Source: Comamonadaceae bacterium (GTDB lineage Bacteria; Pseudomonadota; Gammaproteobacteria; Burkholderiales; Burkholderiaceae_C). From it: 64,000 nucleotides of DNA. Position numbers and translations under genes: made by a program. Each line of letters starts with the position of its first letter. Position 1 is the first letter of the stretch. The stretch spans positions 1 through 64,000 of the forward strand of contig JAIXOX010000007.1 of assembly GCA_027486555.1 (NCBI GenBank), in the 5' to 3' direction. Positions 24,024 to 63,650 of the stretch are shown piece after piece. The notes below the pieces were generated by a model. It was not told where the DNA came from and searched no databases. It saw only the letters and a program-made list of their open reading frames with translations.

Positions 24024-24099
24024 GCGGCTGTAGCTCAGTGGATAGAGTATTGGCCTCCGAAGCCAAGGGTCGTGGGTTCGATCCCCGCCAGCCGCACCA
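24024..24099 (+). tRNA. tRNA-Arg (anticodon CCG)
   Basis: Folds as a full cloverleaf: acceptor stem GCGGCTG/CAGCCGC, D-arm GCTCAGTGGATAGAGT, anticodon stem TTGGC/GCCAA with loop CTCCGAA giving anticodon CCG, and T-arm GTGGGTTCGATCCCCGC. The 3' CCA is encoded. It reads the Arg codon CGG. Confidence 0.95.
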
Positions 24100-24143: not shown

Positions 24144-24923
24144 TCAAAAAGAAAAAGGCCATGAGCTTTTGACGGGCCAGACAAACTCCAGAGGCCAGGT
24201 CAGGGAGGATGGCCAAATCAAATGGGGTGGCCACACCAATTCATAGGGGCTCCACAGCGCAATGCCGTAGCCGAGCAAGGCACCCAACAAAAGGGTGAAA
24301 AAGCGCCATATATAAGAGGAACCAGTACGTACCAAGGGCGTGTTCGCAGTCTGATCGTGAGCCAAACTGAGTGATGATTGATCGGGAGAAAGGTCCTGAT
24401 CTTGGCAGGGCGTGGACAAACTCAGTGCTACGGGTTTCATCAGAGTCGTTGCGTTCGTGGTGTTTGGATGGTTCAGCTCAGACCATTCATCTTGTCGAGA
24501 GTTGCTGGCTGGTTTGATGCTGATAGGCCATTGCAGTTGAACCACCTTATTGAGGGGTTTTGATGCAAAAGCAGCATTTTCCAATTTGTCCCAATCCGCA
24601 TTGAGCAATTTGGCAACACGTTTGGCAGCTTGATCGCGCAGTGATGATGAATAAAAGCGGGTCGAAAGGCCTTGCTCGATTTCATAGAGTTGGGCCACGG
24701 ATATGCAAGCTTGTGTGGCCAACTCAGCAGGGTCAAGTTCCAAATGAAGACGCAAATTTCGGATCAATCGACCCTTGGGGTCTTCAGAAACCTCGGTGAA
24801 TTGATCCATGCGTGTTGCAAAAGAACGATTGGCATGCAAAAGAGATTCATTTTCTCCTGGTCGGGACAGATTGCGCGACAAGCAAGATGTCCTGTTGAAG
24901 GGCATGAATTTCAGCTCTTGCAT
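24144..24923 (-). CDS. HTH-transmembrane protein with C-terminal Trp-Pro hexapeptide repeats
   Basis: A 259-residue protein not recognised as a named family. Residues about 51-113 form an XRE/RodZ-type helix-turn-helix (GRLIRNLRLHLELDPAELATQ, then VAQLYEIEQG). A long polar linker follows. One membrane helix is near 204-223 (YIWRFFTLLLGALLGYGIAL), and the tail has Trp-Pro at residues 231, 237, 243, 249 and 255, an exact period of six (pattern xxxxWP). The layout resembles RodZ: DNA-binding head in the cytoplasm, tail outside. Its start lies inside the end of the pseudo-receiver gene (13-base overlap), so it is the last gene of the lap-type unit. ATG 24809 is a possible later start. Confidence 0.75.
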   Translation of the reverse strand: MQELKFMPFNRTSCLSRNLSRPGENESLLHANRSFATRMDQFTEVSEDPKGRLIRNLRLHLELDPAELATQACISVAQLYEIEQGLSTRFYSSSLRDQAAKRVAKLLNADWDKLENAAFASKPLNKVVQLQWPISIKPASNSRQDEWSELNHPNTTNATTLMKPVALSLSTPCQDQDLSPDQSSLSLAHDQTANTPLVRTGSSYIWRFFTLLLGALLGYGIALWSPYELVWPPHLIWPSSLTWPLEFVWPVKSSWPFSF

Positions 24924-25582
24924 GATGCCACCACACCGGTCAGGTAAGCGTGTAACCAGATAGAAGAAAGAGGGCCGGGCACCAACTGGATGGAAGAAGC
25001 TGCGCCGAACGGCATGGAAGATGCCAGGCCTTTTTCTTGAGTGATCAACACCACCGACAAGGGTGTATGACCACGATTGTTGAAGTTTTCAAGCGCTTGA
25101 AAAGTTTTTTCCTGAAGGGTACGAGGCATGGACATCTCGACAACGATCATGTCAGGACGTTTGTTGGAAAGATCCAAAAGCGCTTCGGTCACGGATTCGA
25201 AAAAATTAACGTCAATGGGGATACCCCATTGCTGAAAATCTTGCATGAAACTGTTCATCAAGCCCGGTGTTTCGATGACAACGGTCACACGAGGTTTGCT
25301 GCTGGATTTTGCATGGCGATTCACAGCATGTCGTGAAACGGTTTGGTAATCCATGATGGAGTCCAGCGAAATACGGCGGTGTCCGCCACGCGTTTTCCAA
25401 CCTTTGAGTTCACCTTGATCGACCAGTGTCTGAACGAGTGTGGTGGACAAACCCAACATTCGAGCCGCTTCTGCGGTGCTTAAAAATTGTGGGGTGTGCG
25501 GTGTTGACTTGTTCTGGACCATCAAAGATGCTGGTTCGATGGAAATAACGTCATCAAGAATAAGAGTGTGTTCATCGCCCAT
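24911..25582 (-). CDS. MerR/excisionase-type HTH protein with a degenerate receiver domain
   Basis: A 223-residue regulator starting MGDEHTLILDDVI at ATG 25582, which has AGGAG seven bases upstream; the track's extra 28 residues are excluded. Residues about 32-80 are an excisionase-like HTH (PQFLSTAEAARMLGLSTTLVQTLVD...RGGHRRISLDSI). Residues about 97-220 look like a response-regulator receiver fold (VTVVIETPGLM, RPDMIVVEMSMPRT, PLSVVLIT). At the usual phospho-Asp position there is Glu149, which would mimic or block phosphorylation. It lies between lapC and the HTH-membrane gene, so a role in controlling the secretion unit is inferred. Confidence 0.78.
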   Translation of the reverse strand: MGDEHTLILDDVISIEPASLMVQNKSTPHTPQFLSTAEAARMLGLSTTLVQTLVDQGELKGWKTRGGHRRISLDSIMDYQTVSRHAVNRHAKSSSKPRVTVVIETPGLMNSFMQDFQQWGIPIDVNFFESVTEALLDLSNKRPDMIVVEMSMPRTLQEKTFQALENFNNRGHTPLSVVLITQEKGLASSMPFGAASSIQLVPGPLSSIWLHAYLTGVVASCKS

Positions 25583-25610
25583 GGTTTGGCTCCTGAAAAG
25601 TGAATTTGGA

Positions 25611-26822
25611 TTAACGCTCGCGCAACGCCTGAGTGACGTTTTGCAAAGGACGGAAGAGGTATTCAAGAACGGTCTTGTAGCCCGTCCTGATTTCGACAGA
25701 GGCAGTCATGCCAGGCGAGGGGGTGAGGCGAAGGCCGTTGCGCAATTCAGGACTTGGTTTGACCCGAATGATGATTCGGTAAAGTCCTTCTTCGAGCTCA
25801 ACCGGGTTGCCGGGTTTGCGTTGTTTTTCGTCGCGTAATGTGTCTGGGCTCAAGTGTTCGAGCACACCATCAAGACCGCCGTATTTGTTGAAGTCGTAAG
25901 CGGTTAACTTCACAACCGCAGACTGGCCAACTTTCAAAAATGCCACTTCAGCAGGTTTAACGTAAGCTTCAACCAGCATTTCGTCTTCGGTGGGAACAAT
26001 TTCAAGAATCGATTGACCCGCTTGGACAACACCACCGACGGTGGTGATCTGGACGTTTTTCACCACGCCTTTCATTGGAGATCTGATGGTGGTTCTGCGA
26101 AATGCGTCCTCGCGTGCCATGGCACTTTCTTTGGTTTGCGAAAGCTCCGAGGCCACACGAACCAACTCATTGTTGGCATCGGTAAGGTAGCGGTTTTGAC
26201 GCTCGGCTCTTTGTCCCATCAATTCAGACTGTTGGCGTTTCAAGCGAAGCAACTCCACCTCGGACATGACGCCCTGGCGAACCATGGGTTCGGTGATCGT
26301 CAACTCACGGGTCACGGAGGACAAAGATGAATCCAATGAACGCAGGGATTCGGACAGGGCCAGTTTTCTGGCGTTGAAGGCTTGCAATTCCTGGCGCATC
26401 AAGGCGGGTTCAGATTTCAATTGCTCAGGAAAAACCAATGAGGTGCCATAAGCTTCGGCTTTCAGGCGTGATGACAAGGCCAAAAGAGCCAGGTATTTTT
26501 CTTTCGCTTCGCGGTAAACCGCACCAGAACGCGCATCGTCAATGCGTAAAAGAATTTGATCCTTTTCAACCACACTGCCTTCTCGTACAAACATTTCACT
26601 CATCACCCCGGAGTCGAGGCTCTGGATGACTTGCTCTCGGCTCGAAGGGATGACTTTGCCCTGTCCCCGGGTGATTTCATCGAGTTCAAAAAATGCAGCC
26701 CATCCCAAAGCCAAAATCAAGGTGAAGGCCGTGGCCCAAATCAGAGTTTTACTGGCCTGACGTTCGTCGTCTTCGACCGTGGGCATGCCAAAACCCTTGC
26801 TCTTGCGCGTTAAAGTGCTCAT
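25611..26822 (-). CDS. Type I secretion membrane fusion protein (HlyD/LapC family)
   Basis: A 403-residue HlyD-family adaptor. It has one N-terminal membrane helix (IWATAFTLILALGWAAFFE), the lipoyl-like half motif GQGKVIPSSREQVIQSLDSGVM, a long coiled-coil middle (about residues 105-240) and the C-terminal beta-barrel/second lipoyl half (APMKGVVKNVQ-like, TTVGGVVQAGQSILEIVP). It bridges the inner-membrane ABC exporter and the TolC-like channel. It overlaps the ABC gene by four bases (ATGA). Confidence 0.92.
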   Translation of the reverse strand: MSTLTRKSKGFGMPTVEDDERQASKTLIWATAFTLILALGWAAFFELDEITRGQGKVIPSSREQVIQSLDSGVMSEMFVREGSVVEKDQILLRIDDARSGAVYREAKEKYLALLALSSRLKAEAYGTSLVFPEQLKSEPALMRQELQAFNARKLALSESLRSLDSSLSSVTRELTITEPMVRQGVMSEVELLRLKRQQSELMGQRAERQNRYLTDANNELVRVASELSQTKESAMAREDAFRRTTIRSPMKGVVKNVQITTVGGVVQAGQSILEIVPTEDEMLVEAYVKPAEVAFLKVGQSAVVKLTAYDFNKYGGLDGVLEHLSPDTLRDEKQRKPGNPVELEEGLYRIIIRVKPSPELRNGLRLTPSPGMTASVEIRTGYKTVLEYLFRPLQNVTQALRER

Positions 26823-29023
26823 GCAGCTGCTCCTTGTGGTTTGGTAACGTTGACATCAATACCCCGCGACAACTTGTCGAGCATCTCTTGCTTGGGGCCC
26901 CAAGCAACGCACTGGCCGGAATCAATCACTGCAATCAGATCAGCCCATTCCAAAAGCTGAGGGCGGTGAGTGGACATCAGCAAAGTGCGTCCGCGCAACC
27001 ACTCGCGCATCACACTAATCACCCGGGCTTCGGTGTTTTGGTCCATGTTCGCCGTGGGTTCGTCCATGAAGACCATTTGTGGATTCCGCAGCATCATTCG
27101 GGCAATCGATAAAAGTTGGCGCTGGCCCCCTGACAGGCCACCACCGGCTTCGGTGATGGGCATGTCCAAGCCCAGGGGATGGTTGGCAACGATGTCGTAA
27201 ACATTGAGTGTTTTGAGGACTTCGACAATCTTGGTGTCGCTGATCCAGCTGTCGGCCAACACCAGGTTTTCGCGCACCGTGCCCATGAAAAGCTGCGGAT
27301 CCTGACCCACATAGCCGATGCGACTGCGCATTTCAGTGGGCTCGATTTGTTGCATGTCGACACCATCGAGCCGCACATTGCCAGCCAAAGGGGCGTACAG
27401 GCCCGACATCAAGCGCAGCAAGGTGCTTTTGCCGCTGCCCACACGGCCCAGCATGGCGACTTTCTGGCCGGGTGCGATGGACATGGACAGGTTTTTGATG
27501 ACTGGGATTTTGTGTTGTCCAGGGTAGGCAAACTCCAAAGAATCCGCTTGCAAACCCCCTTGAATGCTTTCGGGCACAAGGTAATTGCGGCCATGAATGC
27601 GGTCACGGGGGCGTTTCATCAGGCCATCAAGGGTTTCCAGTGCTGAGCTGGCTTGTTGGTAGCGAGAGGCCAAAGACATCACGCTGGCCAAAGGAGAGAT
27701 GGCACGGCCAGCCAAAATCACAGAGGCAATCAAACCACCCAAGGTGAGTTGATTGTTGTGGATCATGTAAACACCGCCTACCACCATGGCCACGGTGATG
27801 AATTGCTGCAGGGCCGTTGTGAAACCCATGATCCAGTTGGTCAGGCTGCGCATGCGTTTGTAGGAGTCGGCACCCGCCAAATTGGCCACCTCCCAACGGC
27901 GCTGCAAGTAGCTTTCAGCGTTGTGTGCCTTGAGCAGTTCAAGGTTCAATACCGACTCGACCAGCACGCTTTGCTTGTCGCCCGACTCTTTCATGTTTTC
28001 CCGCATGGCACTCATCAAAGGCTTTTGAGACAGCAGGCCAATGACAATCAGCAAAGGCACCGCCAGTGCGGGAATCCAGACCAAGTTTCCACCGATCATG
28101 GCAATCAAGGCCAAGAACATCAGTACAAAAGGCATATCGGCCAAAACCACCAAGGATGCGGAGGAGAAAAAGTCACGCAGTGACTCAAAGTCACGCATGG
28201 AACTGGCAAAAATGCCGACGGACTGAGGGCGGTGCTCAAGTCGAATGGCCATGATTTCCCGCAGCAAAGTGGCATTGATGGCCAGATCGGCTTTTTTCCC
28301 ACCCAGATCCACCAAACGGGCTTTGAGCCAGCGCATGATGAACTCCATGAAAATGGCCACGGTGGTGCCAATGGCCAAAGTCCACAGCGAGGTGTAAGCC
28401 CCAGTCGGAACGACTCGGTCGTACACGTTCATGGTGAAGAAAACACTGGCCAGCGTGAGCAAGTTGGCCAACACCGTGGCCACCATCGATTCCACATAAA
28501 AGGCCCGGAATCGCCACAAGGTGCCCCAAAACCAGTTGAAAGCAGAACCTTCCATGGGCGCCAGCGTTTGGTCATGGCGGGTGGGCGGCAGTTTGATGGC
28601 CAGCACCTCGGGGCGGGCCAGACTTTGCAGTTCTGGCAAGGCGATTTTGTGGTCCTCCATGCCCTTGTCTGCCCACCAGACAATGGCCTCCTTGCCTTCA
28701 ATGCTGCGAAGCACGCAGGCCCGTCCATCCATCAAAGGCATCAACACGGGCAGCACGTAGTGAGGAATGTCAGACAAGCGCACGCGAGACCAAGCGGCCA
28801 TCAAACCATTTTTGTGCGCCATGTCGGGATAGGCAGCCAAAGGCACACGACCCCGCGCATCAAGTGCAAAACCGGACCGCAAAACCTGAGCGTGTACAGG
28901 ACGGCCCAGTTGCTTGGCAGCCATGGTCATGCACAGCAAAAAAGGGTCAGCCTGGATGTCCTGACCCGCTGAGGGTTTGGGGGCTGCGCCAACCGCGGTT
29001 GGCATGGGTATCAATTGAGCCAT
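26819..29023 (-). CDS. Type I secretion ABC exporter (LapB-type permease/ATPase)
   Basis: A 734-residue exporter. It has an N-terminal C39-peptidase-like domain (about residues 25-150) that lacks a clear Cys-His catalytic pair, so it is probably a substrate-docking domain as in LapB/HlyB. Six membrane helices follow (for example SMVATVLANLLTLASVFFTMNVYDRVVPTGAY), then an ATPase domain with Walker A GRVGSGKST, signature LSGGQRQ and Walker B MVFMDEPT. It exports large unfolded proteins such as RTX adhesins. Its partners lie on both sides in the same operon. Confidence 0.93.
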   Translation of the reverse strand: MAQLIPMPTAVGAAPKPSAGQDIQADPFLLCMTMAAKQLGRPVHAQVLRSGFALDARGRVPLAAYPDMAHKNGLMAAWSRVRLSDIPHYVLPVLMPLMDGRACVLRSIEGKEAIVWWADKGMEDHKIALPELQSLARPEVLAIKLPPTRHDQTLAPMEGSAFNWFWGTLWRFRAFYVESMVATVLANLLTLASVFFTMNVYDRVVPTGAYTSLWTLAIGTTVAIFMEFIMRWLKARLVDLGGKKADLAINATLLREIMAIRLEHRPQSVGIFASSMRDFESLRDFFSSASLVVLADMPFVLMFLALIAMIGGNLVWIPALAVPLLIVIGLLSQKPLMSAMRENMKESGDKQSVLVESVLNLELLKAHNAESYLQRRWEVANLAGADSYKRMRSLTNWIMGFTTALQQFITVAMVVGGVYMIHNNQLTLGGLIASVILAGRAISPLASVMSLASRYQQASSALETLDGLMKRPRDRIHGRNYLVPESIQGGLQADSLEFAYPGQHKIPVIKNLSMSIAPGQKVAMLGRVGSGKSTLLRLMSGLYAPLAGNVRLDGVDMQQIEPTEMRSRIGYVGQDPQLFMGTVRENLVLADSWISDTKIVEVLKTLNVYDIVANHPLGLDMPITEAGGGLSGGQRQLLSIARMMLRNPQMVFMDEPTANMDQNTEARVISVMREWLRGRTLLMSTHRPQLLEWADLIAVIDSGQCVAWGPKQEMLDKLSRGIDVNVTKPQGAAA

Positions 29024-29029
29024 GGTCGG

Positions 29030-30415
29030 TCACTTTGAAAAAAATCGCTCATTGGGCGCAGGCAATACACGGCCGGGCTCGGCGTTGAAGCGTTTGGCCA
29101 AATCACCCGTGACAGCCAGCAGGCGCACGCGTGCCAATCGTTCGTCGTGGAACGCAGCTCGGGCGGAGCTGCGGTAATTGAAGGCATCGGCCTGAATGTT
29201 CAGCAGGTCCAGCAAAGAGCGGCGTGCCACACGAAACTGTTGGCGGTAAGCGTCAACGAGTTTGTCGCCCACTTCGGACTGAGAGGCGCCTGTGACAGCG
29301 CGTGAACGGGCAGAAGCCCATTCTTGCCAAGCCAATGCGGCTTTTTCTCGGGCCAGAAGTTGGGCTTCTTCCAAAGCGAATTCGGCGGCTTTGAGTTGAC
29401 CCACGGCACCTTCAACCAAAGCAGCTGTGCCGCCACCGTTGTAGAAAGGGGCATTGACCTGCAGTTGTGTAAAGGCCTCTTGGCGGCCATTGGCGGTGTT
29501 GGCTTGTTTGGAAACCGACAAGTCCACCGTAGGCCAAAACTGGCTCTTGGCGACACGAACGCCTGCTTGTGCGGCTTGAACTTGCGAACGGGCTTGTGCA
29601 ATGGTGGGCAAATCAAGCGAAACCATCTCGACCGCCTGAGCCAAAGACGAAGGAATTTTGCCCAGAACACCCGAATCGGCAACGGCGGCATCAAGGCCTT
29701 CAGGCCGAGATGCCATGTCTGCCGCCCAAAAGCGTCTGACCCGCTGAATGGCTTGGGCAAAGTCTGATTTGCGTTGCTGCAGGCTCAATGTGGCATTTTC
29801 CATCCGAACCAGGGCCTGCTCATAGTCCACACGGCGACCGGTGTCGGCTTGGGCAATTTTTCGGATGTCACTCAATGTTTCTTCATGGGCATTGACGTTG
29901 AGCACAGCCAATCGGTAAAGATCGGCTGTTTTCGCCCAATTGAGATAAGCCTCTGCCGCCAGTTGAGCCACTTCATCCAGGGTGTTGGCTTGCAGATATT
30001 CAGAAGCTTGCGTCAGTGCTTCTGCGCGTTGTGCTTCCGCTTCGATTTTTCCACCCGACCACAAATTGACTTTGGCAGTGGGGGAAAGAGAACTTCTGGA
30101 AGTCCCTGAGGGGTATGCGCCAGAGGCAAAAGCATTGGCAGTGGCCGTTAAACCCAATTGTGGGTAATGGGCGCTGCGGGCGCGAGCAATGTCTGAACGG
30201 GAGGCCGAGGTCTTGGCCGCAGCCGACAGAACGGCCGGGTATGTTTGCAGGGCTTGATTGACAACTTCAACCAAGGTTTGAGCCTGTGCCGAAACCCCCA
30301 CGCTGGTCAGCAAAATGGCAGAACAGGCGTGTTGCATCACAACCCAAAGATCTTGAGAGGGTTTTGACTTCGCAGTTGAACGAAGAAAGTATTTTTGGCA
30401 ATCAAGATGAATCAT
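29030..30415 (-). CDS. TolC-family outer membrane channel (LapE-type)
   Basis: A TolC-family outer-membrane efflux protein, 461 residues if started at ATG 30415. It has a signal peptide (AILLTSVGVSAQAQ) and then the repeated TolC halves with long helices (VEVVNQALQTYPAVLSAAAKTSAS; FRVARRSLLDLLNIQADAFNYRSS). The true start is uncertain (30484, 30415 or 30337); the last gives the tidiest signal peptide. It is the first gene of the minus-strand type I secretion unit, seven bases from the ABC gene. Confidence 0.88.
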   Translation of the reverse strand: MIHLDCQKYFLRSTAKSKPSQDLWVVMQHACSAILLTSVGVSAQAQTLVEVVNQALQTYPAVLSAAAKTSASRSDIARARSAHYPQLGLTATANAFASGAYPSGTSRSSLSPTAKVNLWSGGKIEAEAQRAEALTQASEYLQANTLDEVAQLAAEAYLNWAKTADLYRLAVLNVNAHEETLSDIRKIAQADTGRRVDYEQALVRMENATLSLQQRKSDFAQAIQRVRRFWAADMASRPEGLDAAVADSGVLGKIPSSLAQAVEMVSLDLPTIAQARSQVQAAQAGVRVAKSQFWPTVDLSVSKQANTANGRQEAFTQLQVNAPFYNGGGTAALVEGAVGQLKAAEFALEEAQLLAREKAALAWQEWASARSRAVTGASQSEVGDKLVDAYRQQFRVARRSLLDLLNIQADAFNYRSSARAAFHDERLARVRLLAVTGDLAKRFNAEPGRVLPAPNERFFSK

Positions 30416-30510
30416 GAGCGGTGAATTACCAGCTACGTTAAAACTGAAATTCTCGTGAAAAAAGAGAAGTAGCAAATCCGCCAAATGGAGTACGAGCCAG
30501 AGAGAAGTAG

Positions 30511-30532
30511 CTCTGAAATGAAAAATTCAGAG
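30511..30532. promoter_or_regulatory. Inverted repeat upstream of the secretion operon
   Basis: A perfect 7-bp inverted repeat CTCTGAA/TTCAGAG with an 8-base A-rich spacer, flanked by two copies of AGTAGCAAAT (30467 and 30538). It is a candidate operator or short hairpin. Confidence 0.4.
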
Positions 30533-63416: not shown

Positions 63417-63443
63417 AGCCGCTAGGCAACCGATCGCAGACCA

Positions 63444-63650
63444 CGCACCATCGCCCCGAGGGCGGGGCTCCCACAAAGAGGTGATCCCCGTTCCTTGCAG
63501 GAGCGACGCCCTCGTCGCGATGAGCCTGTGCAGACCACAACCCATCGCCCCAAGGACAGCTCCCACAAAGCGGTGATCCCCGTTTCTTGTAGGAGCGACG
63601 CCCTCGTCGCGATGAGCCTGTGAAGACCACGAACCATCGCCCAAGGCCTT
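63444..63650. repeat. Tandem cluster of family A REP-like units
   Basis: Two near-identical units with period 92 bases (GCAGGAGCGACGCCCTCGTC at 63497 and GTAGGAGCGACG at 63589), plus flanking partial units (CACCATCGCCCC...GGCTCCCAC). Downstream of yggS, between convergent genes. Confidence 0.8.

Follow-up and report, generated by a model that had tools for sequence, protein, structure and literature searches.

Transmembrane transcription regulators (TTRs), among them ToxR, CadC, and TcpP, share an N-terminal HTH, a single membrane helix, and a short C-terminal outer part. In ToxR and CadC, the HTH is a winged helix. In a survey of TTRs, 56% were single-pass and about 57% had no further known domain (PMC10269533). 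More than half thus lack a recognisable outer domain (PMC10269533), and their mode of sensing is an open question. Periplasmic tails of another kind act on proteases: the PDZ domains of AlgW and DegS bind peptides with aromatic residues at positions 0 and -2 (WVF, YQF), and the tail of MucE is a natural ligand of this PDZ type (PMC8545111).

Here we describe a gene from a freshwater bacterium of the Limnohabitans group, located in a window of 64,000 nucleotides (the whole stretch of DNA that was analysed). It encodes an HTH protein with one predicted membrane helix and a C-terminal Trp-Pro repeat, hereafter the WP-tail protein. By architecture, it belongs with the TTRs of PMC10269533, having a recognisable HTH domain (HTH_31, matched by 13 of 13 aligned orthologues) and a single predicted transmembrane region. 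It differs from the TTRs named above in its outer part, a 35-residue Trp-Pro repeat instead of a folded sensor domain, and in its HTH, which is XRE/HTH_31-like. RodZ likewise has an XRE-type HTH and a single membrane helix, but its RodZ_C domain has no counterpart here. With MucE-type tails the protein shares a short C-terminus ending in Ar-x-Ar, here periplasmic by prediction; the likeness is one of sequence alone, and it differs in that the tail belongs to an HTH protein and that the ending is not found in all orthologues. Indolicidin and tritrpticin are Trp/Pro-rich membrane peptides. The WP tail resembles them in composition and in being expected to lie extended at an interface, but it is not cationic (net charge -1), is tethered to a membrane helix, and has an exact period of 6. 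A search of open-licence papers for Trp-Pro hexapeptide repeats or tails, or for a regulator pair of HTH_17 and WP proteins, found none.

We propose, with a probability of roughly 0.45, that the WP-tail protein regulates a type I secretion operon as a single-pass TTR and that its tail serves as an interfacial Trp-Pro anchor and sensor.

Architecture of the protein and its operon

The WP-tail gene is the last in a run of overlapping genes that encode a TolC-like protein, an LssB-family ABC transporter, an HlyD-type adaptor, and a protein with HTH_17 and receiver-like domains (Table 1). Its start lies within the end of the preceding gene, and no operon gene lies beyond it. The transporter and the adaptor exceed the cut-offs of TIGR03375 and TIGR01843, as in the LssB-type class, with the TolC-like protein below the cut-off of TIGR01844. 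The operon thus resembles LssB/LapB-type operons in having the tolC, LssB-family ABC, and hlyD genes in a row, and differs from them in the two regulator-like genes appended here. A reading of the window from the sequence alone (the sequence-only reading) had suggested that the tail could interact with secretion components, and the place of the gene at the end of a type I secretion operon agrees with this at the level of gene context.

Table 1 Features of the WP-tail gene, its operon, and the region upstream of tolC
Feature	Position in window	Strand	Details
tRNA-Arg(CCG), convergent neighbour	24024..24099	+	
WP-tail gene: HTH, linker, single membrane helix, (xxxxWP)n tail	24144..24923	-	open frame, 259 aa
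C-terminal tail, residues 225-259	24147..24251	-	Pro period 6; WP at 231/237/243/249/255; ends FSF-COOH
Predicted single membrane helix, residues 203-224	24252..24317	-	hydropathy and model
HTH_31/XRE-like domain, residues 51-111	24591..24773	-	
Excisionase/MerR-type HTH_17 and receiver-like domain	24911..25666	-	likely true start ATG at about 25582
HlyD-type periplasmic adaptor	25611..26822	-	TIGR01843, 303 bits (cut-off 209)
Type I secretion ABC transporter, LssB family	26819..29023	-	TIGR03375, 787 bits (cut-off 693)
TolC-family outer-membrane protein	29030..30484	-	TIGR01844, 178 bits (below cut-off 225); likely ATG at about 30415
Element GTACTCCATTTGGCGGATTTGC, candidate operator upstream of tolC	30472..30493	-	fixed place in 17/17 genomes compared
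Inverted repeat TCTGAAAT-4-ATTTCAGA	30512..30531	.	one mismatch in window; found only in WP-repeat species (upstream regions of three compared)

The receiver-like domain carries a Glu at the usual position of the phosphoacceptor Asp (VVEMSMPR), also in the orthologues read, and is therefore probably not phosphorylated. Paralogues of this HTH_17/receiver-like protein (30-37% identity) are present in the majority of genus genomes. Of the paralogue regions in the genome of the window, three were examined, and none has a tolC or hlyD homologue nearby.

The LapG protease (PF06035) has no match in the 92%-complete genome assembly, which speaks against the LapA/LapG adhesin pathway, and the T1SS_VCA0849 model has no match. 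Contig C94 of the same genome contains one open frame of 14,731 codons (58960-103152; L147-L149) with RTX-type (HemolysinCabind) matches. Its N-terminus carries LEKLEERLLLSAEPLL, reminiscent of LEPR-XLL surface proteins, and it may encode a giant secreted adhesin; frames just upstream resemble adaptor and transport genes.

In the WP-tail protein, an N-terminal arm precedes the HTH, and a variable linker connects it to the membrane helix. The HTH claimed in the sequence-only reading is a real match in all orthologues aligned (best 2.9e-7), but a weak one in the window protein itself, at 24.3 bits against a curated cut-off of 27. Its helices span residues 49-59, 65-83, 93-108, and 111-119 in a low-confidence model. 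Hydropathy peaks at residues 205-227, overlapping the model helix. The WP dipeptides occupy exactly the five positions that had been claimed, within the open frame, and the first follows seven residues after the predicted helix, in line with the claim that the repeat directly follows the membrane helix. The prolines are already in phase one unit before this, from S225-P226 on, and thus occupy positions 226, 232, 238, 244, 250, and 256 of a sequence ending in ...ALWSPYELVWPPHLIWPSSLTWPLEFVWPVKSSWPFSF. No Pfam domain is recognised in the tail; the only match, to the OPT transporter family over helix and tail (residues 188-241), scores 15.9 bits against a cut-off of 25.8 and is taken as compositional. 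A search by sequence for solved structures of the protein returned none, and its AlphaFold model is poor (mean pLDDT 42) and leaves the tail without a fold.

The HTH is also related to those of RodZ-type proteins, which act by protein contact, so that DNA binding is not assured. Six of the 13 orthologues match HTH_25, the RodZ HTH, if weakly (best E 0.0018), and the next-best matches of the protein are RodZ-like proteins of the same genus. The HTH might accordingly contact a cytoskeletal or secretion protein as part of a scaffold, with the tail keeping it at the membrane. We regard this as very unlikely: the protein has no RodZ_C domain (PF13464), the genome encodes a separate bona fide RodZ (C94:23920, 74 bits), and the operon is a secretion operon. 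Membership in the RodZ family proper is ruled out by the lack of RodZ_C, the best match to which in this genome lies in another gene.

Distribution and constraint of the Trp-Pro repeat

The regularity of the tail exceeds what its composition would give. The five-fold exact period arose in none of 1,000,000 shuffles of the tail; when each of the five WP dipeptides was moved as an intact unit, it arose in 25 of 300,000. At the DNA level, TGGCC-N13-TGGCC-N13-TGGCC has three overlapping matches in the window, all at the WP tail, where none is expected. The 18-bp units have only 7-11 of 18 bases in common, and Tandem Repeats Finder does not report the array, which places the conservation of the repeat at the protein level; on these comparisons, it is an old or protein-selected repeat and no fresh slippage product, and a DNA tandem repeat or replication-slippage artefact is ruled out. 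The Pro residues are constant although their codons vary freely (CCA, CCT, CCC, CCG), which also rules out a tail read out of frame, one of the two findings that the sequence-only reading had said would speak against it. A genus-wide DNA scan for the period-6 TGGCC pattern gave matches in 73 of 90 genomes; among the matches listed outside the orthologues, most look, by eye, like unrelated genes in other frames. Other tandem arrays noted are a 92-bp unit near the end of the window (63436-63646; 2.3 copies, 87% matches) and, in another genome (G064, C58:29803-29897), runs of a 9-bp unit, TGGCCCTTT / TGGCCCATT, unrelated to the WP tail.

The combination of HTH, membrane helix, and (xxxxWP)n, which the sequence-only reading had proposed to look for, recurs in three other species, in frame and conserved. 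A scan of the genome collection found these near relatives (n=3) in Limnohabitans sp. WS1 (L033), a Comamonadaceae MAG (L034), and a Burkholderiales MAG (L035). The proteins are 67-87% identical to that of the window and all carry the WP repeat, L033 with SALELV in place of unit 3 (SA for WP).

With the neighbouring HTH_17 gene serving to locate it, we read the operon slot in the best 30 genomes of the genus. The repeat is present in four of the 30, namely the window and its three near relatives. Another pattern, seen in four genomes, is a C-terminal YSPYRL[YV]WPW (YSPYRLYWPW or YSPYRLVWPW) that stands directly where the membrane helix ends and obeys the unit pattern of the repeat. One genome has YSPYSLY, three have RQYWPE[FY]Y followed by about ten residues, and one has the gene without such a motif. 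Two genomes are cut by contig ends, and in the remainder the gene is absent or has no recognisable copy. In a further genome (L091), a divergent copy continues with ...TQWPALAQMWTQL after the helix. Homologues lacking the repeat entirely, the other finding named beforehand as evidence against the claim, thus exist in part: the distant orthologues have no repeat, but most of them retain its first unit as SPYxLxWP or YWP.

In a tree built from the neighbouring protein, the species with the repeat group into a single clade (support 99/97). The gene is absent in one clade that has the same operon; the confirmed absences require two changes on this tree, one of which stems from a row truncated at a contig end. 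A profile search of 401 genomes across the taxonomic family (E <= 1e-12) found no further full-length copy: beyond the orthologue of the query, matches cover the HTH region only, RodZ-like proteins among them, and by profile the gene is found only in the Limnohabitans-group genus. In this operon slot, the more distant orthologues have nothing but the seed SPYRLYWPW-COOH, and the repeat is thus a recent, lineage-specific extension of an older juxtamembrane motif. The sequence facts are solid and unusual, and the distribution is narrow. The family offers a minimal outer part that can be traced stepwise within one genus, starting with a SPYRLYWPW end of ten residues and leading to a ribbon of five Trp-Pro units.

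A related HTH family, represented in the genome of the window by C1:30525-30818 with orthologues elsewhere (L002, L009-L011, L086-L097), comprises proteins of about 200-240 aa with no obvious membrane helix. Several end in ...SxALFLRVADxx or ...SLTQLLRVADxx, and the family is a possible soluble sister of the WP-tail protein.

Among the four repeat species, dN/dS is lowest in the HTH (residues 48-114; 0.035), the strongest constraint in the protein, and amounts to 0.206 in the N-arm, 0.50 in the linker, and 0.37 in the membrane helix. The tail as a whole gives 0.113 and the W/P positions of the repeat 0.041. These values indicate that the tail is functional in the repeat clade, where one lost unit is tolerated; judged by this substitution pattern, the WP tail is real, selected, and functional in its clade. 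They also bear on whether the extra units are a near-neutral, lineage-specific lengthening of a helix-end anchor motif, by in-frame duplication or loss of a stop codon, that adds only hydrophobic bulk. The restriction to one clade, the species that kept the gene after losing unit 3, and the orthologues that manage with one unit or none would all fit such a history. We consider it decidedly unlikely, as the tail and its WP positions are far more constrained than the linker and the pattern of the residues between the WPs is not random.

Chains of WP or WPP might instead stall the ribosome while the helix is inserted. The peptide FxxYxIWPPP is a known elongation staller (PMC7897499), and the window protein has the similar YELVWPP. 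The motif itself is not matched: the tail reads WSPYELVWPPH here and has WPS in L033 and L034, with a different spacing, and there is one PP in the window tail and none in those two. No same-strand gene follows that could be regulated by arrest, and a role as an arrest peptide is scarcely credible.

Amphipathic pattern of the tail and its possible partners

The repeat unit can be written [WS]-P-x-polar-[LF]-x. Counted from 0, position 3 in the window is E, H, S, E, K, S and position 4 is L, L, L, F, S, F. We permuted the residues between the W and P positions with all W and P fixed and compared hydrophobic moments. At 180 degrees on the Wimley-White interface scale, only 0.0007, 0.0003, 0.008, and 0.010 of the shuffles reached the observed moment in the four species; with Eisenberg values, the fractions were 0.009, 0.002, 0.027, and 0.021. 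The species form one clade, so that the four results are not independent. At 100, 120, 160, and 170 degrees, no significant moment was found on the Wimley-White interface scale in the four species. In an extended strand, every Trp and most Leu/Phe would fall on one face and Glu/His/Lys/Ser on the opposite one, and Pro at every sixth residue argues against a helix. The water-to-interface energies of residues 224-259 sum to -8.5 kcal/mol. Together, these features would agree with a ribbon in extended form whose Trp face rests on the membrane, and also with a hydrophobic face docking on a protein.

In the mechanism that we propose, the N-terminal HTH would lie on the cytoplasmic side, one helix would span the inner membrane, and about 35 residues would emerge in the periplasm. 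The period-6 prolines would block helix formation and keep the tail extended, flat on the outer leaflet with its indoles inserted. Positioned in this way, the tail would set the depth and tilt of the membrane helix, making the activity of the HTH responsive to the membrane surface around the secretion complex or to contact with the complex. The strong conservation of the tail, its amphipathicity at 180 degrees, and its interface energy argue for an anchor and sensor, as does the seed motif right at the end of the helix, where an aromatic belt would be. Of the ligands offered in the sequence-only reading, lipid agrees with the composition and amphipathic pattern of the tail. The interface energy alone also fits a hydrophobic protein-binding peptide, which counts against an anchor.

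The main rival, which we consider somewhat unlikely, is a tail that binds a periplasmic protein. Its Ar-x-Ar end could dock on the PDZ domain of a DegS/AlgW-type protease or on a chaperone, or its WP units on HlyD, and the regulator would in this way sense the state of secretion or of the envelope, or be cleaved. The terminal FSF (F257-S258-F259) is invariant in the four repeat species and WPW ends four orthologues, both resembling WVF and YQF (PMC8545111); the gene is encoded together with hlyD, and a flexible tail of repeated units suits multivalent binding. On the other hand, where 10 of 36 residues are aromatic an Ar-x-Ar end is not very improbable, the C-termini of other orthologues are LAF, QIV, QAM, SLY, or WGV, and no partner gene travels along apart from the secretion operon.

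The period-6 Trp-Pro chain might also be a periplasmic sensor of an undescribed kind: an extended amphipathic ribbon, extendable unit by unit, that would lie along the outer leaflet, or else along the adaptor of the secretion machine, and would let a membrane HTH protein read the state of its own type I machine, with the sensitivity set by the number of units. In this specific form, we think the proposal unlikely.

Trp often stacks on sugars. With a tail predicted to face the periplasm, this would be in keeping with glycan or peptidoglycan binding, as the sequence-only reading had suggested. No carbohydrate-binding family is matched, however, the 35 residues contain no pocket-forming domain, and the tail begins at the membrane surface; we find the suggestion unsupported and such binding highly improbable. 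To return to the anchor and sensor, the output of the operon, type I secretion, is measurable, which makes the locus a compact system for asking if a peptide on the membrane surface can be a sensor by itself.

Upstream region of tolC

The overlapping last place in the operon, a conserved element upstream of tolC, and the constraint on the HTH argue for a regulator of this operon, and the WP-tail protein would then take part in the control of its own expression. The element GTACTCCATTTGGCGGATTTGC (Table 1) has only one further copy in the genome, with two mismatches and inside rpoD, which is taken as chance and not as a second site. Conserved and essentially unique in the genome, the element suggests operon-specific control. 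It is equally conserved with and without the WP-tail gene, and its reader is thus more likely the HTH_17 protein, which the WP-tail protein may join there. The element forms the start of a block, opening with GTACnCCAATTGGcGGATT and extending to about 30423, that is conserved between the promoter region and the tolC start codon. We do not claim the inverted repeat formed by TCTGAAAT and ATTTCAGA as an operator, as it occurs only in WP-repeat species and not in other genomes with the gene.

In two other genomes (G017 and G068; L156 and L157), the element upstream of tolC is enlarged to a near-perfect palindrome of 34-36 bp, AATCCGCCAATTGGCGTACGCCAATTGGCGGATT, with arms of 16-17 bp, of which other genomes keep one half. 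It looks like an expanded operator, and in L156 another site related to it lies about 130 bp upstream of the palindrome.
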